A DNA stretch of 64,000 bases from Pseudoglutamicibacter cumminsii (GTDB lineage Bacteria > Actinomycetota > Actinomycetes > Actinomycetales > Micrococcaceae): assembly GCF_003143995.1 (NCBI RefSeq), contig NZ_QFWG01000001.1, positions 186,001 through 250,000 on the forward strand, in the 5' to 3' direction. Below the pieces are notes generated by a model. That model worked only from the letters and a program-made list of their open reading frames with translations. It was not told the origin of the DNA and searched no databases. Position 1 is the first letter of the stretch, and every line of letters starts with the position of its first letter. This document shows, in pieces, positions 12,472-21,290 of the stretch. Position numbers and translations under genes: made by a program.

Positions 12472-14130
12472 ATGAGCGATCAAGCAACCACCCCGTCGTC
12501 CTCACCGGCTCCAGGTGCTGAGGCAGCGAGCGAGCTTGCAGAGGTTAGAAGCCGCAACGTCGAGCTGTCCCGCCGAACCGAAGATTTGAACCGGCAGAAC
12601 GCCCGGCTCGTGGATGCGTTGCGTCGTTCACGTGAGGCGATCGACGGGCTACGGGCTTCGTTGGAGCGGGACGGTGACTTCCCGCTAACGCATGCCGTGG
12701 TGTTGGCTCGGCATGAAGCGATCACTGACCGAACCCGCGCGATCCCGGGGGCATCCGGGGCAGGCGTGGACATCCTTCACGCTGGCCGAACCGTACGCAC
12801 CGGGATTTCGCCTTTGTTGGAAAGCGATCTTGTTGTCCCCGGCGCCGAGGTCTTGGTCAACGAGTCACTCATCGTCGTGGCGGTTCTTGGCCAGCGGGAG
12901 ACCGGTGCCGTGATGACGGTGGTCGACACGCTTGATGCCGATCGGCTTGTTGTGTCGATGCGGACGGGGGAGCGGGTTGTCGTCCGGGCGGCGCAGGCTC
13001 TCGTGCGACGCGGTGTGCGGCCTGGTGAGCTCGTGCTCGTGGACGCCAAGACGGACATGGCGTTGTCCACGATCACGGTGGATTCGGGGACCTCTGGTCT
13101 GCAGTTGGCTGAGGTACCGCAGACGACGTACCAGATGATCGGCGGCTTGGATCAGCAGATCACGCAGGTGCGTGACGCGATCGAACTCCCGTTCATCCAC
13201 CGCGAAAAATTCGAAACGTACGGCCTCGAAGCCCCACGAGGGGTTCTGTTGTATGGCCCTCCAGGGACCGGCAAGACGATGATCGCGCAAGCCGTCGCCC
13301 ATGCGCTGAGCGAGCAGACCGGTTCATCCGCATACTTCCTCAACGTCAAAGGCCCCGAACTGCTCGATAAGTTCGTGGGCGAAACCGAACGCCACATCCG
13401 CCTGATCTTCGACCAGGCCCGCGAACAAGCGGCAGCAGGCCACCCCGTCGTTGTGTTCTTCGATGAGATGGACGCACTGTTCCGCACCCGCGGAACCGGT
13501 GTGTCCTCCGATGTTGAAACCACGATTGTGCCGCAGCTTCTCGCCGAAATCGACGGGGTAGAGAAGCTTTCGAACGTACTCGTGATCGGCGCGACCAACC
13601 GCGCCGACATGCTTGACCCTGCCCTTTTGCGCCCTGGGCGCCTCGACGTCAAGGTGCGCATCGAACGCCCCGACCGCGCGGCAACGCTCGACATCCTGAG
13701 CCGCTACCTCAACACCGACACCCCACTTGCCGCAAGCGAGCTCAGCCGGCACACCGGTGCGGCCGCGGCGGCCGCCCACTTGCGCGAAGTAGTGGCCCAC
13801 GAAGTCTTCGAGGTTGAGGCGCCGCTGTTTGAATGCCTGGATGACGACGGCGGAACCCACTACATCGGTAGGTCGCAGCTCATCTCGGGCGCGGTGATCA
13901 AAGCGATCGTGGACCGGGCTAAGCGAACCGCCATCAAACGCGACATCGAAGGCGGCGAACCGGGCCTCGATGAGTCCGCGGTGCGCTCAGCCGTGCAGGG
14001 CGAGTTCGCGCACTCGGGGCACATGCCAACGCAAGGATCCCCGGACGAATGGGCCCGCATCCTGGGCCTCAGCACGCCAGCCGGCACCCGCATCGTGAGC
14101 GTGCGCCGCATCGAACACAGCGAGCAGTAG
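12472..14130 (+). CDS. arc: AAA ATPase forming ring-shaped complexes ARC (Mpa family)
   Basis: This 552-residue Pup-recognising unfoldase has an N-terminal coiled coil (about residues 20-66) that binds Pup, then tandem OB domains, then the AAA module. Walker A is GPPGTGKT at 262-269, Walker B VVVFFDEMDAL near 326-336, and the arginine-finger region NRADMLDPALLRPGR. It unfolds pupylated proteins with ATP. Mycobacterial Mpa ends with a flexible tail and GQYL, which docks on the 20S core; here the protein stops at RIVSVRRIEHSEQ, so that tail is missing. This agrees with the absence of prcBA downstream. dop starts 2 bases after the stop. Confidence 0.96.
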   Translation: MSDQATTPSSSPAPGAEAASELAEVRSRNVELSRRTEDLNRQNARLVDALRRSREAIDGLRASLERDGDFPLTHAVVLARHEAITDRTRAIPGASGAGVDILHAGRTVRTGISPLLESDLVVPGAEVLVNESLIVVAVLGQRETGAVMTVVDTLDADRLVVSMRTGERVVVRAAQALVRRGVRPGELVLVDAKTDMALSTITVDSGTSGLQLAEVPQTTYQMIGGLDQQITQVRDAIELPFIHREKFETYGLEAPRGVLLYGPPGTGKTMIAQAVAHALSEQTGSSAYFLNVKGPELLDKFVGETERHIRLIFDQAREQAAAGHPVVVFFDEMDALFRTRGTGVSSDVETTIVPQLLAEIDGVEKLSNVLVIGATNRADMLDPALLRPGRLDVKVRIERPDRAATLDILSRYLNTDTPLAASELSRHTGAAAAAAHLREVVAHEVFEVEAPLFECLDDDGGTHYIGRSQLISGAVIKAIVDRAKRTAIKRDIEGGEPGLDESAVRSAVQGEFAHSGHMPTQGSPDEWARILGLSTPAGTRIVSVRRIEHSEQ

Positions 14131-14132
14131 AC

Positions 14133-15851
14133 ATGACTGAAACGCAGTATCCAGTTCCAGATGGGCTGACAGCGGCCGGCCTCGTGGGCCGAACGCCCGG
14201 CGAGCGCGTCATGGGAACCGAGACCGAATACGGGATCATCGCGCCCGGCTCAGAACTCACGCCAACGCAGCTCTCCGCGGCGGTTGTCACGGCGATGGGG
14301 GAGGCGCTTGAAGAGCTCGGCTCGGCGAGCGCTACGGCCCCGTGGGATTACCTGCACGAGCGCCCTCTGGATGATGCTCGTGGATTTTCGGTGCGGCGTG
14401 CCGACGCTCACGAATCGCAGCTGACGCATGAGGGTGCCTCTGTCGCGGCTGGAGCTTCGGTAGCTGGCGACTGTGCCGGCGCTGGAACGGGCGCTGCCGG
14501 AGCGGGTGCGTCTGGCGGCCGGATCCTCATGAACTCGGTTTTGGGCAACGGCGCGCGTTTCTATGTCGATCACGCGCACCCCGAGTACTCCTCACCCGAG
14601 ACCACAAATTCTTATGATGCCGCGGTGTGGGATCAAGCGGGGGACCGCCTCGCGAGCGTGGCCGCCCGCTACGCGAGCGAGCGCATCGGGCACGAAGTGA
14701 TCCTGCACAAGAACAACGTTGACGGCAAGGGCGCCTCGTACGGGACGCACGAGAACTACTTGACGCCGCGGGCTCTGCCGTTCGACGCGCTAGTTGCGGG
14801 GCTGTTGCCGTTCTTCGCGTCGCGGCACATCGTGTGCGGTTCGGGCCGCGTCGGGCTCGGGCAGTTCGGGGAGCAGGCAGGTTTTCAGATCTCGCAGCGC
14901 GCTGACTATTTCGAGCAACGCGTTGGGCTGGAGACGACGTTGCGGCGGCCCCTGGTCAACACGCGCGATGAACCACACGGGCAGAGCGATCGCTTCCGCC
15001 GGCTGCATGTGATCGTTGGGGACGCGAACTGTTGGGGCGTTTCGACCCAGGTTCGGCTCGGTGCAACGAACTGGGTTTTGCGGCTCATCGAAGCGGGGCG
15101 TATGCCGCGCATCGAGCTCGCCGACCCTGTTGCGGCCGTCAAGGTGTTCTCTCAGGATCCGTCTCTTCGCGCCACAGTTACCACGGTTGATGGCCGCAGC
15201 CTCAGCGGTCTGGACATCCAGGAAATGTTCCTGGAAGCAGCAGAGACGTATGCGGCAGAGGACAGGGCGGCAGAACAGGCGGCGTCCGATGCGGTCAGCT
15301 CTGGCGCTGAACGTGGCGTGCTCGTCTTGTGGCGCCGGATCGTCGATGCGTTGCGCGCAGACGATCCGGTGGCCGACCGGCTGGTTGAATGGCGCGGCAA
15401 ATACTCGTTGTTGCGTGCCTATGCGGCTAGAGCCGGCCTTGACGCCGCGGACCCCGCCACATGGGATGCAGACCAGCTGAAACTGATCGACCTTCAATGG
15501 TCTGACCTGCGGGCAGGCAAAGGGCTTGCGTGGGCGCTCGAACGCGCCGGCAAAGCAGAAACCGTACTCGCGGAAGCCGACATCCAAGCCGCACTCACCA
15601 CACCTCCAGCGACGACCCGGGCATGGGCACGCGGCCAGGCCGTGAGCACATTCGGAACCCAACTGACATCCGCATCGTGGGACAGCCTGACCTTCGACGT
15701 CGACGGCCGCATCGAACGCATCGACATGCCGGTTCCGTGGGCCGCAACCAAGCACGAAGTCAGCACCTTATCGCTCGGTGAGTTCTGCACCGGCATCGAG
15801 CAGTCAACACACGCCCACGAACCCAGCCCGAGCGACCCACACACCCTCTAA
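14133..15851 (+). CDS. dop: Pup deamidase/depupylase Dop
   Basis: The 572-residue glutamine-synthetase-like enzyme has GTETEYG at residues 28-34, the catalytic aspartate in FYVDHAHPEYSSPE (Asp146), the nucleotide-binding KNNVDGKGASYGTHENY, and NTRDEPH. Dop deamidates the C-terminal Gln of Pup and removes Pup from substrates. It is longer than the roughly 500 residues usual in mycobacteria: about 26 extra N-terminal residues, and an enlarged Dop loop (about residues 86-130) filled with Ala, Gly and Ser, which tells Dop from PafA. The ATG at 14133 is 2 bases after the arc stop; a longer open frame lies inside arc. Its C-terminus ends about 60 bases before pup. Confidence 0.95.
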   Translation: MTETQYPVPDGLTAAGLVGRTPGERVMGTETEYGIIAPGSELTPTQLSAAVVTAMGEALEELGSASATAPWDYLHERPLDDARGFSVRRADAHESQLTHEGASVAAGASVAGDCAGAGTGAAGAGASGGRILMNSVLGNGARFYVDHAHPEYSSPETTNSYDAAVWDQAGDRLASVAARYASERIGHEVILHKNNVDGKGASYGTHENYLTPRALPFDALVAGLLPFFASRHIVCGSGRVGLGQFGEQAGFQISQRADYFEQRVGLETTLRRPLVNTRDEPHGQSDRFRRLHVIVGDANCWGVSTQVRLGATNWVLRLIEAGRMPRIELADPVAAVKVFSQDPSLRATVTTVDGRSLSGLDIQEMFLEAAETYAAEDRAAEQAASDAVSSGAERGVLVLWRRIVDALRADDPVADRLVEWRGKYSLLRAYAARAGLDAADPATWDADQLKLIDLQWSDLRAGKGLAWALERAGKAETVLAEADIQAALTTPPATTRAWARGQAVSTFGTQLTSASWDSLTFDVDGRIERIDMPVPWAATKHEVSTLSLGEFCTGIEQSTHAHEPSPSDPHTL

Positions 15852-15910
15852 CACGCCGGTTTGTAGCATGGAAGATAACGAGAACCGGCCCACGAGCTAA
15901 GGAGAACAAC

Positions 15911-16102
15911 ATGGCTCAGGAACGTATTAACCAGCAGAGCTCAACACCTGCGGAACAGAGCAGCGAAACCGTCGACGCCCCGCAGATCAACACGCAGGGT
16001 CAGGACGCCGGTGTGGACTCGATCCTTGACGAAATCGACGGCCTCCTGGAAACCAACGCCTCCGAATTCGTCTCCGGCTACGTCCAAAAGGGCGGGCAGT
16101 GA
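15911..16102 (+). CDS. pup: Prokaryotic ubiquitin-like protein Pup
   Basis: This is a 63-residue, mostly disordered protein ending in VQKGGQ, the form that Dop must deamidate to GGE before ligation. The C-terminal half carries the conserved VDSILDEIDGLLETNASEFV helix that binds the ARC coiled coil. Only one lysine is present (in VQKGGQ). A clear ribosome-binding site (AAGGAGAAC) precedes the ATG. The stop TGA overlaps the pafA GTG (GTGA), so the ligase is translationally coupled to its tag. No proteasome subunit gene lies between the two. Confidence 0.98.
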   Translation: MAQERINQQSSTPAEQSSETVDAPQINTQGQDAGVDSILDEIDGLLETNASEFVSGYVQKGGQ

Positions 16103-17592
16103 GCCTAGACAATGTAGCCGCGAACCGCATCGTAGGCCTGGAGACTGAATACGGGCTCGCCTACAGCGCCCGCAGCGGCCGCGCACCAGAGGTCGACGAC
16201 GTCGCTAAGCACCTGTTCCAGCCGGTGATCGACTGGGGGAGGGCCACGTCGGTGTTCCTGCCGAACGGTTCGCGGCTCTACCTCGATGTGGGGTCTCACC
16301 CCGAGATCGCGACCGCGGAATGCTCGCTACTGAGCGAAGTCCTCGAGCAAGACCGAGCGGGAGCGCGAACTCTCGAACGGCTCGCACAGATAGCGCAAGA
16401 TGCCTGGGAGGACTCCCCGCACCCTGGAACCATCCACCTGCTGCGCAACAATGTGGACTCGGCAGGTAACGCGTTCGGTTGCCACGAAAACTATATGATT
16501 CCGCGCAAACTCGGTGCCGCACGTCTTGCGCACACGCTCATCCCGTTCTTGGTGACTCGCCCGCTGATTTGCGGGGCGGGCCATATCCGTCTGATCGATG
16601 ACCGGCCGCGGTACGTGCTTTCTCCGCGCGCCCGGCACATGTGGGAAGCCGTGTCATCTGGTTCGACGCGCTCCCGCCCGATGATCAACACGCGCGATGA
16701 ACCACACGCGGATGCCGCGAAGCATCGCCGCCTGCACGTGATCGTGGGGGACACCAACGTCTCAGAGGCATCAACGCTTGTGAAGATCGCTTCGACGTGG
16801 CTTGTGCTGGATTGGATCGAAGCCGGCGGCAGGTCTGAACTCGGAGAGATTGATCAGCCCGTGGATTCGCTGCGTGCCGTGTCTGATGACGCAGACGGCC
16901 ACACGATGCTGACCTTCGACACGGGGCGCCGCATGAGCGCGGTTGACGTTCAAGACTATTTCTATGAACAAGCCGCAGCACACGCTCAACGCAACGGCGC
17001 AATCGAGCGCGATCCGCTGATGCGTACCGCGCTGGATCTGTGGCGCCAGACGCTCGATGCGTGGCATGCCGAAGACCTCACTAGCGTCGCGACGACGCTG
17101 GATTTTGAAGCGAAGCGGCGCCTTCTGGACCGCTACGCGCAACGCCGAGGAGTCGACTGGGACGATGCCTCGGTACGCCGCCTCGAGCTCGCCTATCACG
17201 AACTCGCTCAGCCTCATGCCGCGTCACTCCAGGAAAAGCTCGAGACATCCGGGCTGCTTGAACGCATCACAACGCCCGATGCGGTTGAGACTGCACGTGT
17301 ACGTCCTCCTCACACGACGCGAGCGCTATCCCGCGGCGCCTTGATCGCGGCGAGCCACGCAAGCGGGGCAAGCTATAAAGCGGACTGGATGACGTTCCGG
17401 CTCAGCGACGTAACCGAGACCAAAGTCCTCATGCCAGACCCACTTGAGGCCGCATCGTCGGCTGCATCTGAGCTCATTTCCACGCTTCCTGGGAGCCATA
17501 AGGGCACGGAACCTGAAGCGAGTGCCGCCGCGATCATCGACGCGGTTTTCTCAAGCCTTGACGAAGACTCTATGGTCCCCGGCGGACTGTAG
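16099..17592 (+). CDS. pafA: Pup-protein ligase PafA
   Basis: The 497-residue glutamine-synthetase-fold ligase shows GLETEYG at residues 13-19, the catalytic aspartate in LYLDVGSHPE (Asp63), RNNVDSAGNAFGCHENY and NTRDEPHADA. It lacks the Dop loop. PafA phosphorylates the C-terminal Glu of Pup and joins it to substrate lysines. The GTG start overlaps the pup stop by four bases. The block after the aspartate reads HPEIATAEC where most homologues have HPEYATAEC. Other actinobacteria carry prcB and prcA just before this gene; here it follows pup directly. Confidence 0.96.
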   Translation: MSLDNVAANRIVGLETEYGLAYSARSGRAPEVDDVAKHLFQPVIDWGRATSVFLPNGSRLYLDVGSHPEIATAECSLLSEVLEQDRAGARTLERLAQIAQDAWEDSPHPGTIHLLRNNVDSAGNAFGCHENYMIPRKLGAARLAHTLIPFLVTRPLICGAGHIRLIDDRPRYVLSPRARHMWEAVSSGSTRSRPMINTRDEPHADAAKHRRLHVIVGDTNVSEASTLVKIASTWLVLDWIEAGGRSELGEIDQPVDSLRAVSDDADGHTMLTFDTGRRMSAVDVQDYFYEQAAAHAQRNGAIERDPLMRTALDLWRQTLDAWHAEDLTSVATTLDFEAKRRLLDRYAQRRGVDWDDASVRRLELAYHELAQPHAASLQEKLETSGLLERITTPDAVETARVRPPHTTRALSRGALIAASHASGASYKADWMTFRLSDVTETKVLMPDPLEAASSAASELISTLPGSHKGTEPEASAAAIIDAVFSSLDEDSMVPGGL

Positions 17593-19184: not shown

Positions 19185-21290
19185 GTGAGCACAAGCAACA
19201 TCAAGCCTGTGAGCCCTGCGGCGAAAGCCGTGGGGCTCATGCGCGTGCTCACATCAACCCGCATCGGGCTCACAGCAGCCATGCTCCGCGATCGTATCCC
19301 CGATTATCAGGGCTTAAGCGACGCAGCTTTCGAGCGCGCATTCGAACGCGACAAGAGCCGCCTGCGTTCCCTCGGAATCGAGCTTACGGTCGAAAAGCTT
19401 GAGGCAGACGCCCTCGGGGAGGTGCGGTACCGGATCGACCTGCCCGCGCATCGGCTGCCTGAACTGCATCTGAGCGATCAAGAACGTCTTGTGACCGCGC
19501 TAGCCGCGGCCGCTGTGGGCGGTAGCGGATGGGGATCTCACGCGCGTCGGGCATCCGTGCGGCTTGGGGGAGTGAGCACATCATCGCCTGGCGCTGGCGC
19601 TGGTGCGCGCGCTGAGCTGTCGGGCCCGCCGGACGCGGCCGAGGCGCTCATCCTTGCAGCTTTGTGCGAATATCCGGTCTCTTTCGATTACCGCGCGGCG
19701 AACGGTGAGCGCACCGAACGCCGGATCCTGCCGTGGGGCGTTGGTCAGCTGGCGGGCCGCTGGTATGTGTTCGGGGGCGACATCGAGCGCGGCGGCGAGC
19801 GCATGTTCCGTTTGGATCGAATCCAGGGGAGTGTTGCGCAGGCAAATGCTCGCAAAGCCGAGATGATCCACGAGATCTATGGGCGCCCAGACAAGTTTTC
19901 GATGCGGGACGAGCTCGCCCGGCTCACGCATCGTGACCTGCTCCAGGAGGTGTGGGTTGCTCTGCCGGAAGGGGCGGGCGCTGAGCTGAAAGCCCGCGGC
20001 CGCTCCATGGTGGAGGACCGTGGTGTTGAGGTTGTCGCGGTCGATGGCGTGTATTCCGATGTGATTCGCGAGTGCGCGGCCGTTGGTGCCGCTGTTGTGG
20101 GGCCCGGTGATGTTGCCCAGGACCTCGCGGATACCGCGCTGATTGAGGCAGCACTGGCCGCACATGATTCGGCTGGTGAGGATCAGTCGTCGCCGCGTTT
20201 GCGTTTATCTGCAGGCGGAAGGCCGTCGACTGATCAGGTTTTGGCAGACGTCATCAGTTTGGCTTCGGTGATTCAGTCTGAAGGGGCCCAAGATATTGAC
20301 GAGCTTGCTACGCGTTTTGCGGTGCCTCGTTCTGAGATTGAGCGCTGGCTTGCCACACTCGAGTTGGGTGCGCACATCGTAGAAGACGTTTCAACCGATC
20401 AGGCGAGCTTCGGGCTACGCCTTGATGGCAATACCGTTGAGCTGTCCGCCGATGAGGGGCTCACGTATCCGCTGAACGTTTCACTTCAGGAAGCTACGGC
20501 TTTACTGCTGGGTTGTGAGCTGTTGCTGTCCGTCCCTGGCCTCGGACCGTCAGTGCACGATGCGGCGGACGCCGTGGTTGAAAAGCTCACGCAGGCGCGT
20601 GCGCAACTCAACGATTTCAGCGCGATCGTGGCGAGCGAACCCGGACAGCATCGCGGTGAAACCTTGCGGTTTGCTGAGATGCTGGGGCAGGCCATTGCTG
20701 AACAGCGCACGGTGCATATGCGCTACGCGAGTTTCGAAGCGACGACCGAACGGAACATCGACCCGCTCACGCTTGTCCGCTTTGACGACAAGCTGTATGT
20801 GAGGGCGTGGTGTCACCTGCGTGGTGGGGAACGCACGTTCAACGTTGAGCGGATCGTCAATCTGGAAGTGACTGACAAGCAAGCAACCCACACGTTGTCT
20901 GATGAGCGCCCAGCGACCTCTACCGGCTTTGCAAGCGGCGGTGGCTTTGTAGGCGGCGATCGCGGTACCGAAGCGTTGCTTGGGTTCGGGCGGGATTCCC
21001 AGTGGATGGTTTCCTCGTTCCGGCCGAGCGTGACGCGGCGGACGGACACGGAGGTCATTGCTCGAGTTAACGTTGTGAGCGTTGAATCGATTGCCCGAAC
21101 TGTTGCCGAAACCGGTGGTGACGTGCGAATCGTCTCGCCTCCGCAACTGCGTGATGACGTCCGTGCGGCGCTTGAAGACCTGCTGGAGAGTTCACGCCGT
21201 TGCCGTACAGTGGGCACTGAGCTGGTTTCTCAACTAGCTGTTACACCCACAAAGAATCCCAACCCCACAAGCAAACAGGAGCAAAAGTGA
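19185..21290 (+). CDS. pafBC: PafBC, fused WYL-domain transcriptional activator of the DNA damage response
   Basis: The 701-residue protein contains two complete copies of the HTH-WYL-WCX layout: a first winged helix (about 10-70) and WYL domain with RWYVFGGD near 192, then a second HTH (about 350-400) and WYL domain with KLYVRAWCH near 540. In mycobacteria PafB and PafC are separate; natural fusions are known from Arthrobacter. PafBC activates LexA/RecA-independent damage-response genes. Despite its place in the Pup locus it does not act in pupylation. The GTG start follows a TAGAGATA box by about 8 bases. The stop overlaps the next GTG (GTGA). Confidence 0.93.
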   Translation: MSTSNIKPVSPAAKAVGLMRVLTSTRIGLTAAMLRDRIPDYQGLSDAAFERAFERDKSRLRSLGIELTVEKLEADALGEVRYRIDLPAHRLPELHLSDQERLVTALAAAAVGGSGWGSHARRASVRLGGVSTSSPGAGAGARAELSGPPDAAEALILAALCEYPVSFDYRAANGERTERRILPWGVGQLAGRWYVFGGDIERGGERMFRLDRIQGSVAQANARKAEMIHEIYGRPDKFSMRDELARLTHRDLLQEVWVALPEGAGAELKARGRSMVEDRGVEVVAVDGVYSDVIRECAAVGAAVVGPGDVAQDLADTALIEAALAAHDSAGEDQSSPRLRLSAGGRPSTDQVLADVISLASVIQSEGAQDIDELATRFAVPRSEIERWLATLELGAHIVEDVSTDQASFGLRLDGNTVELSADEGLTYPLNVSLQEATALLLGCELLLSVPGLGPSVHDAADAVVEKLTQARAQLNDFSAIVASEPGQHRGETLRFAEMLGQAIAEQRTVHMRYASFEATTERNIDPLTLVRFDDKLYVRAWCHLRGGERTFNVERIVNLEVTDKQATHTLSDERPATSTGFASGGGFVGGDRGTEALLGFGRDSQWMVSSFRPSVTRRTDTEVIARVNVVSVESIARTVAETGGDVRIVSPPQLRDDVRAALEDLLESSRRCRTVGTELVSQLAVTPTKNPNPTSKQEQK

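Follow-up and report, generated by a model that had tools for sequence, protein, structure and literature searches.

A pupylation locus without 20S proteasome genes in Pseudoglutamicibacter cumminsii and the apparent order of docking-tail and proteasome losses in the Micrococcaceae

In the complete Pup-proteasome locus, as found in Arthrobacter and others, prcB and prcA of the 20S core lie between pup and pafA, the unfoldase ARC ends in GQYL, and Bpa is encoded as well. For organisms without proteasome genes, the accessible portion of a 2012 review states that pup lies directly before pafA and that the ATPase lacks the interaction motif (PMC3511204). The closest described systems are of the Corynebacterium type, for which the available parts of the sources report arc, dop, pup and pafA, with pup before pafA, no 20S genes, no C-terminal ARC motif and no Bpa (PMC3511204, PMC8223512); in Corynebacterium glutamicum, according to the available sections of two reports, ARC releases iron from pupylated ferritin (PMC12288473, PMC8223512), which agrees with an original prediction, made from the DNA sequence, that corynebacteria offer a precedent with ARC as an unfoldase. 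Here we describe the pupylation locus of Pseudoglutamicibacter cumminsii, contained in a window of 64,000 nucleotides (assembly GCF_003143995.1, contig NZ_QFWG01000001.1, positions 186,001 to 250,000 of the forward strand), to which all coordinates below refer. It has the same Pup genes as the complete locus, differing from it in the three respects named, shares all the listed features of the Corynebacterium type, and is another case of the state that the review, in the portion available, had already put in general terms (PMC3511204). It differs from the Corynebacterium type in belonging to another genus and in that the order of tail and 20S losses was worked out within its family, the Micrococcaceae; this order is the new element here, and in the open-access literature, as far as its text was available, we found no description of the tail being lost ahead of 20S, nor of a 20S core alongside a tail-less ARC.

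From gene content and comparison with relatives, we consider it probable that this is a working pupylation system free of degradation, in which ARC would act as a stand-alone Pup-dependent unfoldase and for which the losses would have occurred in the order proposed below.

The pup locus of the window and the missing 20S core

The locus begins with arc (12472-14130, + strand), encoding a predicted Mpa/ARC AAA+ unfoldase of 552 aa with OB domains and an AAA domain (TIGR03689, 604.7 bits, cut-off 504.75), followed by dop (14133-15851, +) for a predicted Pup deamidase/depupylase of 572 aa (TIGR03688, 523.8 bits against a cut-off of 492.3, with a query started two codons upstream of 14133), pup (15911-16102, +) for a protein of 63 aa with the C-terminus GGQ (TIGR03687, 66.2 bits, cut-off 41.45), and pafA (16099-17592, +) for a putative Pup ligase of 497 aa. 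The PafA score for TIGR03686, 510.3 bits, is under the 551.3 cut-off, TIGR03686 still being the top family; two Pup ligase chains of known structure, 4bjr (4-487) and 4b0t (4-463), aligned with the protein, which keeps ETEYG and has LDVGSHPE as in 4b0t, where 4bjr has LNVGSHPE. pup and pafA overlap by 4 bases at the site of prcB-prcA in 20S-bearing relatives. Family models, coordinates and substitution ratios agree with the original prediction that the four genes are intact and adjacent and that pup runs into pafA where prcB and prcA usually sit.

A genome search for prcA and prcB, proposed with that prediction, found none. PF00227, a profile that covers both 20S and HslV and whose positive control matched in 10 of 14 known genomes, had zero matches in the 2.09-Mb own genome (32 contigs, completeness 98.55%) and in the three further genomes sampled from the genus (G206, G230 and G251), two of which are single-contig; Bpa had zero matches in the same four genomes. 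PrcB and PrcA were likewise undetected by BLAST (E 1e-4) in 69 pup-flanking stretches of 20S-less genomes, the window included and a few cut by contig ends. A search for Cdc48, made with the Cpa activator in mind and without a positive control, gave no match above the cut-off in any of 20 genomes, and among the matches listed none had two modules.

The C-terminus of the window ARC is RIVSVRRIEHSEQ, with no GQYL. In an alignment with Mpa (7px9, 609 aa), window residues 28-547 of 552 paired with Mpa 54-587; past this point Mpa continues for 22 more residues to GQYL and the window ARC for 5, its C-terminal end (STPAGTRIVSVRRIEHSEQ) lying at 14071-14127 (+). The GQYL stretch therefore has no counterpart in the window ARC, and a GQY(L/F)-stop pattern had zero matches in the own genome, so that the predicted absence of the tail holds. 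The motor is kept: Walker A, Walker B, the pore-loop KFVGE, a G-A-T-N-R stretch (arginine finger) and RPGRLD are all present, with what we take to be the usual roles of Walker A/B, pore loop and arginine finger, and an N-terminal coiled-coil stretch can be read from the sequence. At the second docking contact, the available part of a cryo-electron microscopy study reports that the Mpa beta-hairpin ANGDK (501-505) touches the 20S core and is unconserved in species without it (PMC8755798). The window ARC has DDGGT at this hairpin, and the contact is not conserved.

The ratio of nonsynonymous to synonymous substitution rates (dN/dS) between the window and locus L010 was 0.075 for arc, 0.084 for dop, 0.076 for pup and 0.089 for pafA, at dS values of 0.7-1.6 that are partly saturated; against L009 it was 0.10, 0.15, 0.05 and 0.16, respectively. 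In the intra-genus comparison, pafBC gave 0.18-0.23 and a tRNA methyltransferase-like neighbour 0.005-0.034. With values of 0.05-0.16 within the genus, the four genes are therefore not chance frames, and these low ratios show continuing selection on the pathway.

Pup, 20S core and docking contacts among relatives

Among 149 Micrococcaceae genomes from 32 genera, PF00227 was found in 79 and Pup in 148, the single miss being G253, which is 82% complete; Pup was thus present in 69 of the 70 genomes without 20S. Thirteen genera were 20S-less in every sampled genome, and g89 and g94 were mixed. Micrococcus luteus, of this family, is presumably one of the 20S-less cases. The species appears in the legends, as far as these were available, of published figures that include 20S-less loci (PMC8223512, PMC4254994). 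In the order (198 genomes), PF00227 was found in 122 and Pup in 181; 60 genomes had Pup without 20S, 16 had neither, and one, 77% complete, had 20S alone. Pup without 20S is an ordinary state in the family and the order.

For the ARC ends, the pup-flanking stretches were taken from all 79 20S-bearing genomes and from 69 of the 70 20S-less ones (the window included; G253, with no Pup match, omitted), and the latter yielded 68 ends, L158 supplying G306 and G330 being cut by a contig end. ARC ends in GQYL in 76 of the 79 20S-bearing genomes; the tail-less exceptions are L082 and L083 of g89 and L086 of g74, with prcBA at the normal position. Of 83 tailed ARCs from 20S-bearing genomes, 76 from the family and 7 from outside it, 61 match at four or more of the five hairpin positions and 22 at fewer; four matches are reached in none of the 68 20S-less family ARCs and in none of the three tail-less 20S-bearing ones. 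Both docking contacts are therefore altered in g74 and g89 despite persisting core genes. All five ATPase motifs, the pore loop included, are present in 68/68 20S-less family ARCs examined.

Of those 68 ARCs, a single one, in G204 (L036, genus g80), carries GQYL. Its pup and pafA are separated by an 88-codon frame whose end matches the PrcA C-terminus with a score of 107, where 200 shuffles reached at most 49, and scores 71-96 against three other PrcAs. The start of the frame resembles the PrcB start with a score of 54, not significant alone against a shuffle best of 56 (200 shuffles), and scores 29-42 against three other PrcBs. Bpa of G204 also ends in GQYL, on a partial frame in which the N-terminal 50 model positions are missing. 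The frame resembles a remnant in which the start of PrcB and the end of PrcA are joined, and G204 looks like a case of likely recent deletion of the 20S genes, with GQYL retained on ARC and Bpa. Published work, in the sections available, reports that genomes without prcBA invariably lack bpa too (PMC4254994, PMC8223512) and that ATPases from organisms without 20S genes are without the motif (PMC3511204); being 20S-less yet having Bpa and a tailed ARC, G204 is therefore an exception to both rules. Bpa was above the cut-off in 67 of the 79 20S-bearing family genomes; 11 had no match, and the twelfth, G262, had a sub-threshold fragment only. In G277, G293 and G198, which have 20S, both Bpa and a tailed ARC are absent, and none of their frames above 65 residues was found to end in GQY(L/F). 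A published case of 20S without ARC and Bpa, in the part of the source available, is Propionibacterium acnes (PMC4254994).

A profile of the ARC C-terminus (A1) was applied to the genomes of the order. It reached the GQYL end in 93 of the 122 20S-bearing genomes, did not reach it in 27, and had no match in two; among the matches listed, it reached that end in 0 of the 76 20S-less genomes. The 27 comprise 14 genomes of genus g12 (f6), 11 of f20 and two of f11, and in 22 of them the ARC end was read directly. Relatives with prcBA and a tail-less Arc, which had been named beforehand as evidence that would count against the original prediction, therefore exist (3/79 in the family and, by the ARC-end profile, 27/122 in the order).

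None of the 14 ARC ends read in g12 is of the form xYL; twelve (L266-L277) are [SP][DS]L[VLI], the others being L174 and L278. Bpa was matched in 13 of these 14 genomes, and its end is GNYL in all 10 in which it was read, three matches stopping at position 121 of 161. The shared tail may possibly be a new docking signal or serve a new partner. The g12 hairpin is intermediate, with at least four matches in 0/14 and a mean of 2.6 of 5 positions, against 1.5 in 20S-less family ARCs, and ARC may dock there by another route. L278 (G170), whose ARC is without the shared tail, is also the sole g12 genome without a Bpa match; its PF00227 match falls into three pieces, yet one frame can be read as PrcB with active-site motifs. 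In f20, where 20S is present and no Bpa match was found, 5 of the 6 ends read among 11 genomes are GGR[QH][VL]E[LA] (L279, L281-L283 and L180), and three of the six have at least four hairpin matches. With the hairpin partly kept, ARC may therefore still dock to the 20S core in f20.

Proposed order of tail and 20S losses

A tree was built from Arc, Dop and PafA (58 rows, 1386 columns, LG+C20), with the last kept ARC columns excluded. Its rows are a subset of an earlier set of 161, without L171, L174 and L180-L182; the first tree, made from that set with FastTree, was set aside, as the fast outgroup rows L174 and L180-L182 were drawn into the family and L171, with a PafA taken from the Dop frame, was misplaced; the Dollo counts from it (12 for 20S, 5 for the tail, 11 for Bpa) were not relied on. 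In the 58-row tree the window belongs to a clade (Shimodaira-Hasegawa-like approximate likelihood ratio support 100) whose 28 rows, from 11 genera, are without exception tail-less; only three of them, g74 and two of g89, still carry 20S. Grouping the 25 20S-less rows of this clade together was rejected by the approximately unbiased test (p-AU 2.8e-5), and with it, under the model used and provided that prcBA cannot be regained, a single 20S loss in the tail-less clade. Parsimony gave 4 changes for the tail and 7 for 20S; if 20S can only be lost, our own reading of the tree is 9-12 losses in the family.

The PrcBA sequences of g74 and g89 are sisters (support 100) and fall among family rows (87), on long branches, in a tree where no single branch separates the outgroup from the rest and several rows are long. 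What we take to be their active-site and pocket residues are retained, namely the TT with which the mature beta subunit starts, GDRRAT, MEKVF and, in PrcA, the lysine stretch. In the comparison of L082 with L083, where dS is saturated, prcB and prcA have higher dN/dS (0.118 and 0.108) than pafA, pup and dop (0.02-0.05). These comparisons favour cores that were inherited and are still constrained, if faster-changing, rather than regained. The tail thus appears to have been lost once in the 11-genus clade, before several 20S losses, which suggests that in these relatives the unfolding motor was detached from the proteasome before the proteasome genes vanished.

Several results weigh against this interpretation. 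The tail-first order follows from the assumption that prcBA is lost and never regained; recombination of the pup-pafA segment may yet have restored prcBA in g74 and g89, although the PrcBA tree speaks against it. The group submitted to the approximately unbiased test was named only after inspection of the tree. Six independent pairs could be compared on the tree: tail and 20S vary together in three, the tail does not differ in the other three, and no pair goes the opposite way, a non-significant result (p 0.25). The weaker constraint on prcBA in the tail-less 20S-bearing pair may mean that the core itself is on its way out. Outside the Micrococcaceae, one of the two 20S-less ARCs of family f17 retains an AGGDK hairpin. 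On the side of function, 21 of the 70 20S-less family genomes have weak ferritin-fold matches only (best E 8.5e-23 or weaker).

The observation behind the original prediction is confirmed and its interpretation partly supported. The loss of 20S with pupylation kept stands, with no 20S in four genomes of the genus and intact Pup genes; tail loss belongs to the 11-genus clade and not to this lineage alone. The use of the missing tail as a second, separate pointer to 20S loss does not stand up, in view of the non-significant pairs, the tail-less 20S-bearing relatives and the GQYL of G204. As proof of 20S loss, the missing tail was rejected on account of those same relatives.

Proposed function and competing explanations

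In the course of events that we propose, the starting point would be an ancestor with a complete Pup-proteasome locus. ARC would have lost its docking tail, and probably the hairpin contact too, in the common ancestor of the 11-genus clade, with prcBA still there; repeated deletions of prcBA would have followed, one of them in the lineage leading to the genus of the window. Pup ending in GGQ requires deamidation by Dop prior to ligation. In the window, Dop would accordingly be expected to deamidate Pup-GGQ, PafA to ligate Pup to lysines of targets and Dop to take it off again, and ARC would pull Pup-tagged proteins through its pore with ATP and release them unfolded or disassembled, with no feeding of a 20S core. 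Pup ends in GGE instead of GGQ in the 20S-less relatives L012 and L016 (g4) and L042-L045 (g5), where deamidation by Dop is therefore unnecessary.

The own genome has one ferritin-fold match (PF00210, E 1.9e-34), whose best NCBIfam name is non-heme ferritin at 69.3 bits, below the 178 cut-off. This single ferritin may be one client of ARC, by analogy with C. glutamicum: the window likewise comes from a 20S-less genome that encodes a ferritin and an ARC with intact ATPase motifs. The two differ in that functional data exist for C. glutamicum and the window is known from its genes, and in that 21 of the 70 20S-less relatives seem to be without such a ferritin. Judged by score class, the weak matches of those 21 are probably Dps-like; if so, a ferritin role is not the shared reason for keeping Pup, and ferritin release as a common reason is unsupported for them.

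Pupylation might instead be a reversible mark only, with ARC doing something else or merely binding Pup. Dop and PafA are constrained about as much as ARC, as this would lead one to expect; the intact motor of all 68 20S-less family ARCs and the position of arc, still adjoining dop and pup in the window, make it unlikely. That ARC feeds another protease such as ClpP1P2 or FtsH, Pup remaining a degradation tag, is quite improbable: places of ~690 aa were taken for FtsH, and other ATP-dependent proteases are, as general knowledge, widespread in bacteria, but the 20S-less family ARCs show no new shared C-terminal motif by eye (no search for a ClpP-type docking loop was made), and their ends differ even within a genus (...EHSEQ versus ...EPAGDQ). 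A locus decaying as a whole after proteasome loss would fit the sub-threshold PafA score and the long branches of several 20S-less groups, and was rejected as very improbable on the dN/dS of 0.05-0.16, with frames intact and Pup missing only from the one incomplete genome among the 70. A prcBA hidden in a gap of the 32-contig, 98.55% complete assembly or elsewhere in the genome is hardly conceivable given the direct pup-pafA overlap, the absence of PF00227 from the own genome and three congeneric ones (two assembled in a single contig) and the absence of Bpa, and was rejected.

Downstream of the locus, a PafB-PafC-like regulator is encoded in a single reading frame (19185-21290, +; 701 aa), with WYL in two stretches and HTH_PafC; we take it to be a usual neighbour of pup loci. 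PafB and PafC form one long frame in most of the family loci read as well, with no match in several. In genus g83 (L050, L052, L055 and L157), dop and pup are set apart by about 0.5-2 kb of extra DNA; this contains, on the reverse strand, a frame that starts MRLWTLHPR and presumably resembles pyrimidine-dimer DNA glycosylases.

Beyond the window, we propose tentatively, and as slightly less than an even chance, that in several actinobacterial lineages ARC and Pup became independent of a 20S core that the genome still encoded, and that g74, the two g89 genomes and g12 run Pup-ARC unfolding beside a proteasome that cannot be docked by GQYL. If this is true, Pup would not be a degradation tag in such cells despite the presence of a proteasome. 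The window adds a further example, in a small genome, of pupylation that is probably free of degradation. The family offers a natural series of states, in which the system is coupled, 20S stands beside a tail-less ARC, 20S is deleted with the tail kept, or both are lost; comparison of relatives along this series gives a way to test what Pup does besides marking proteins for degradation.

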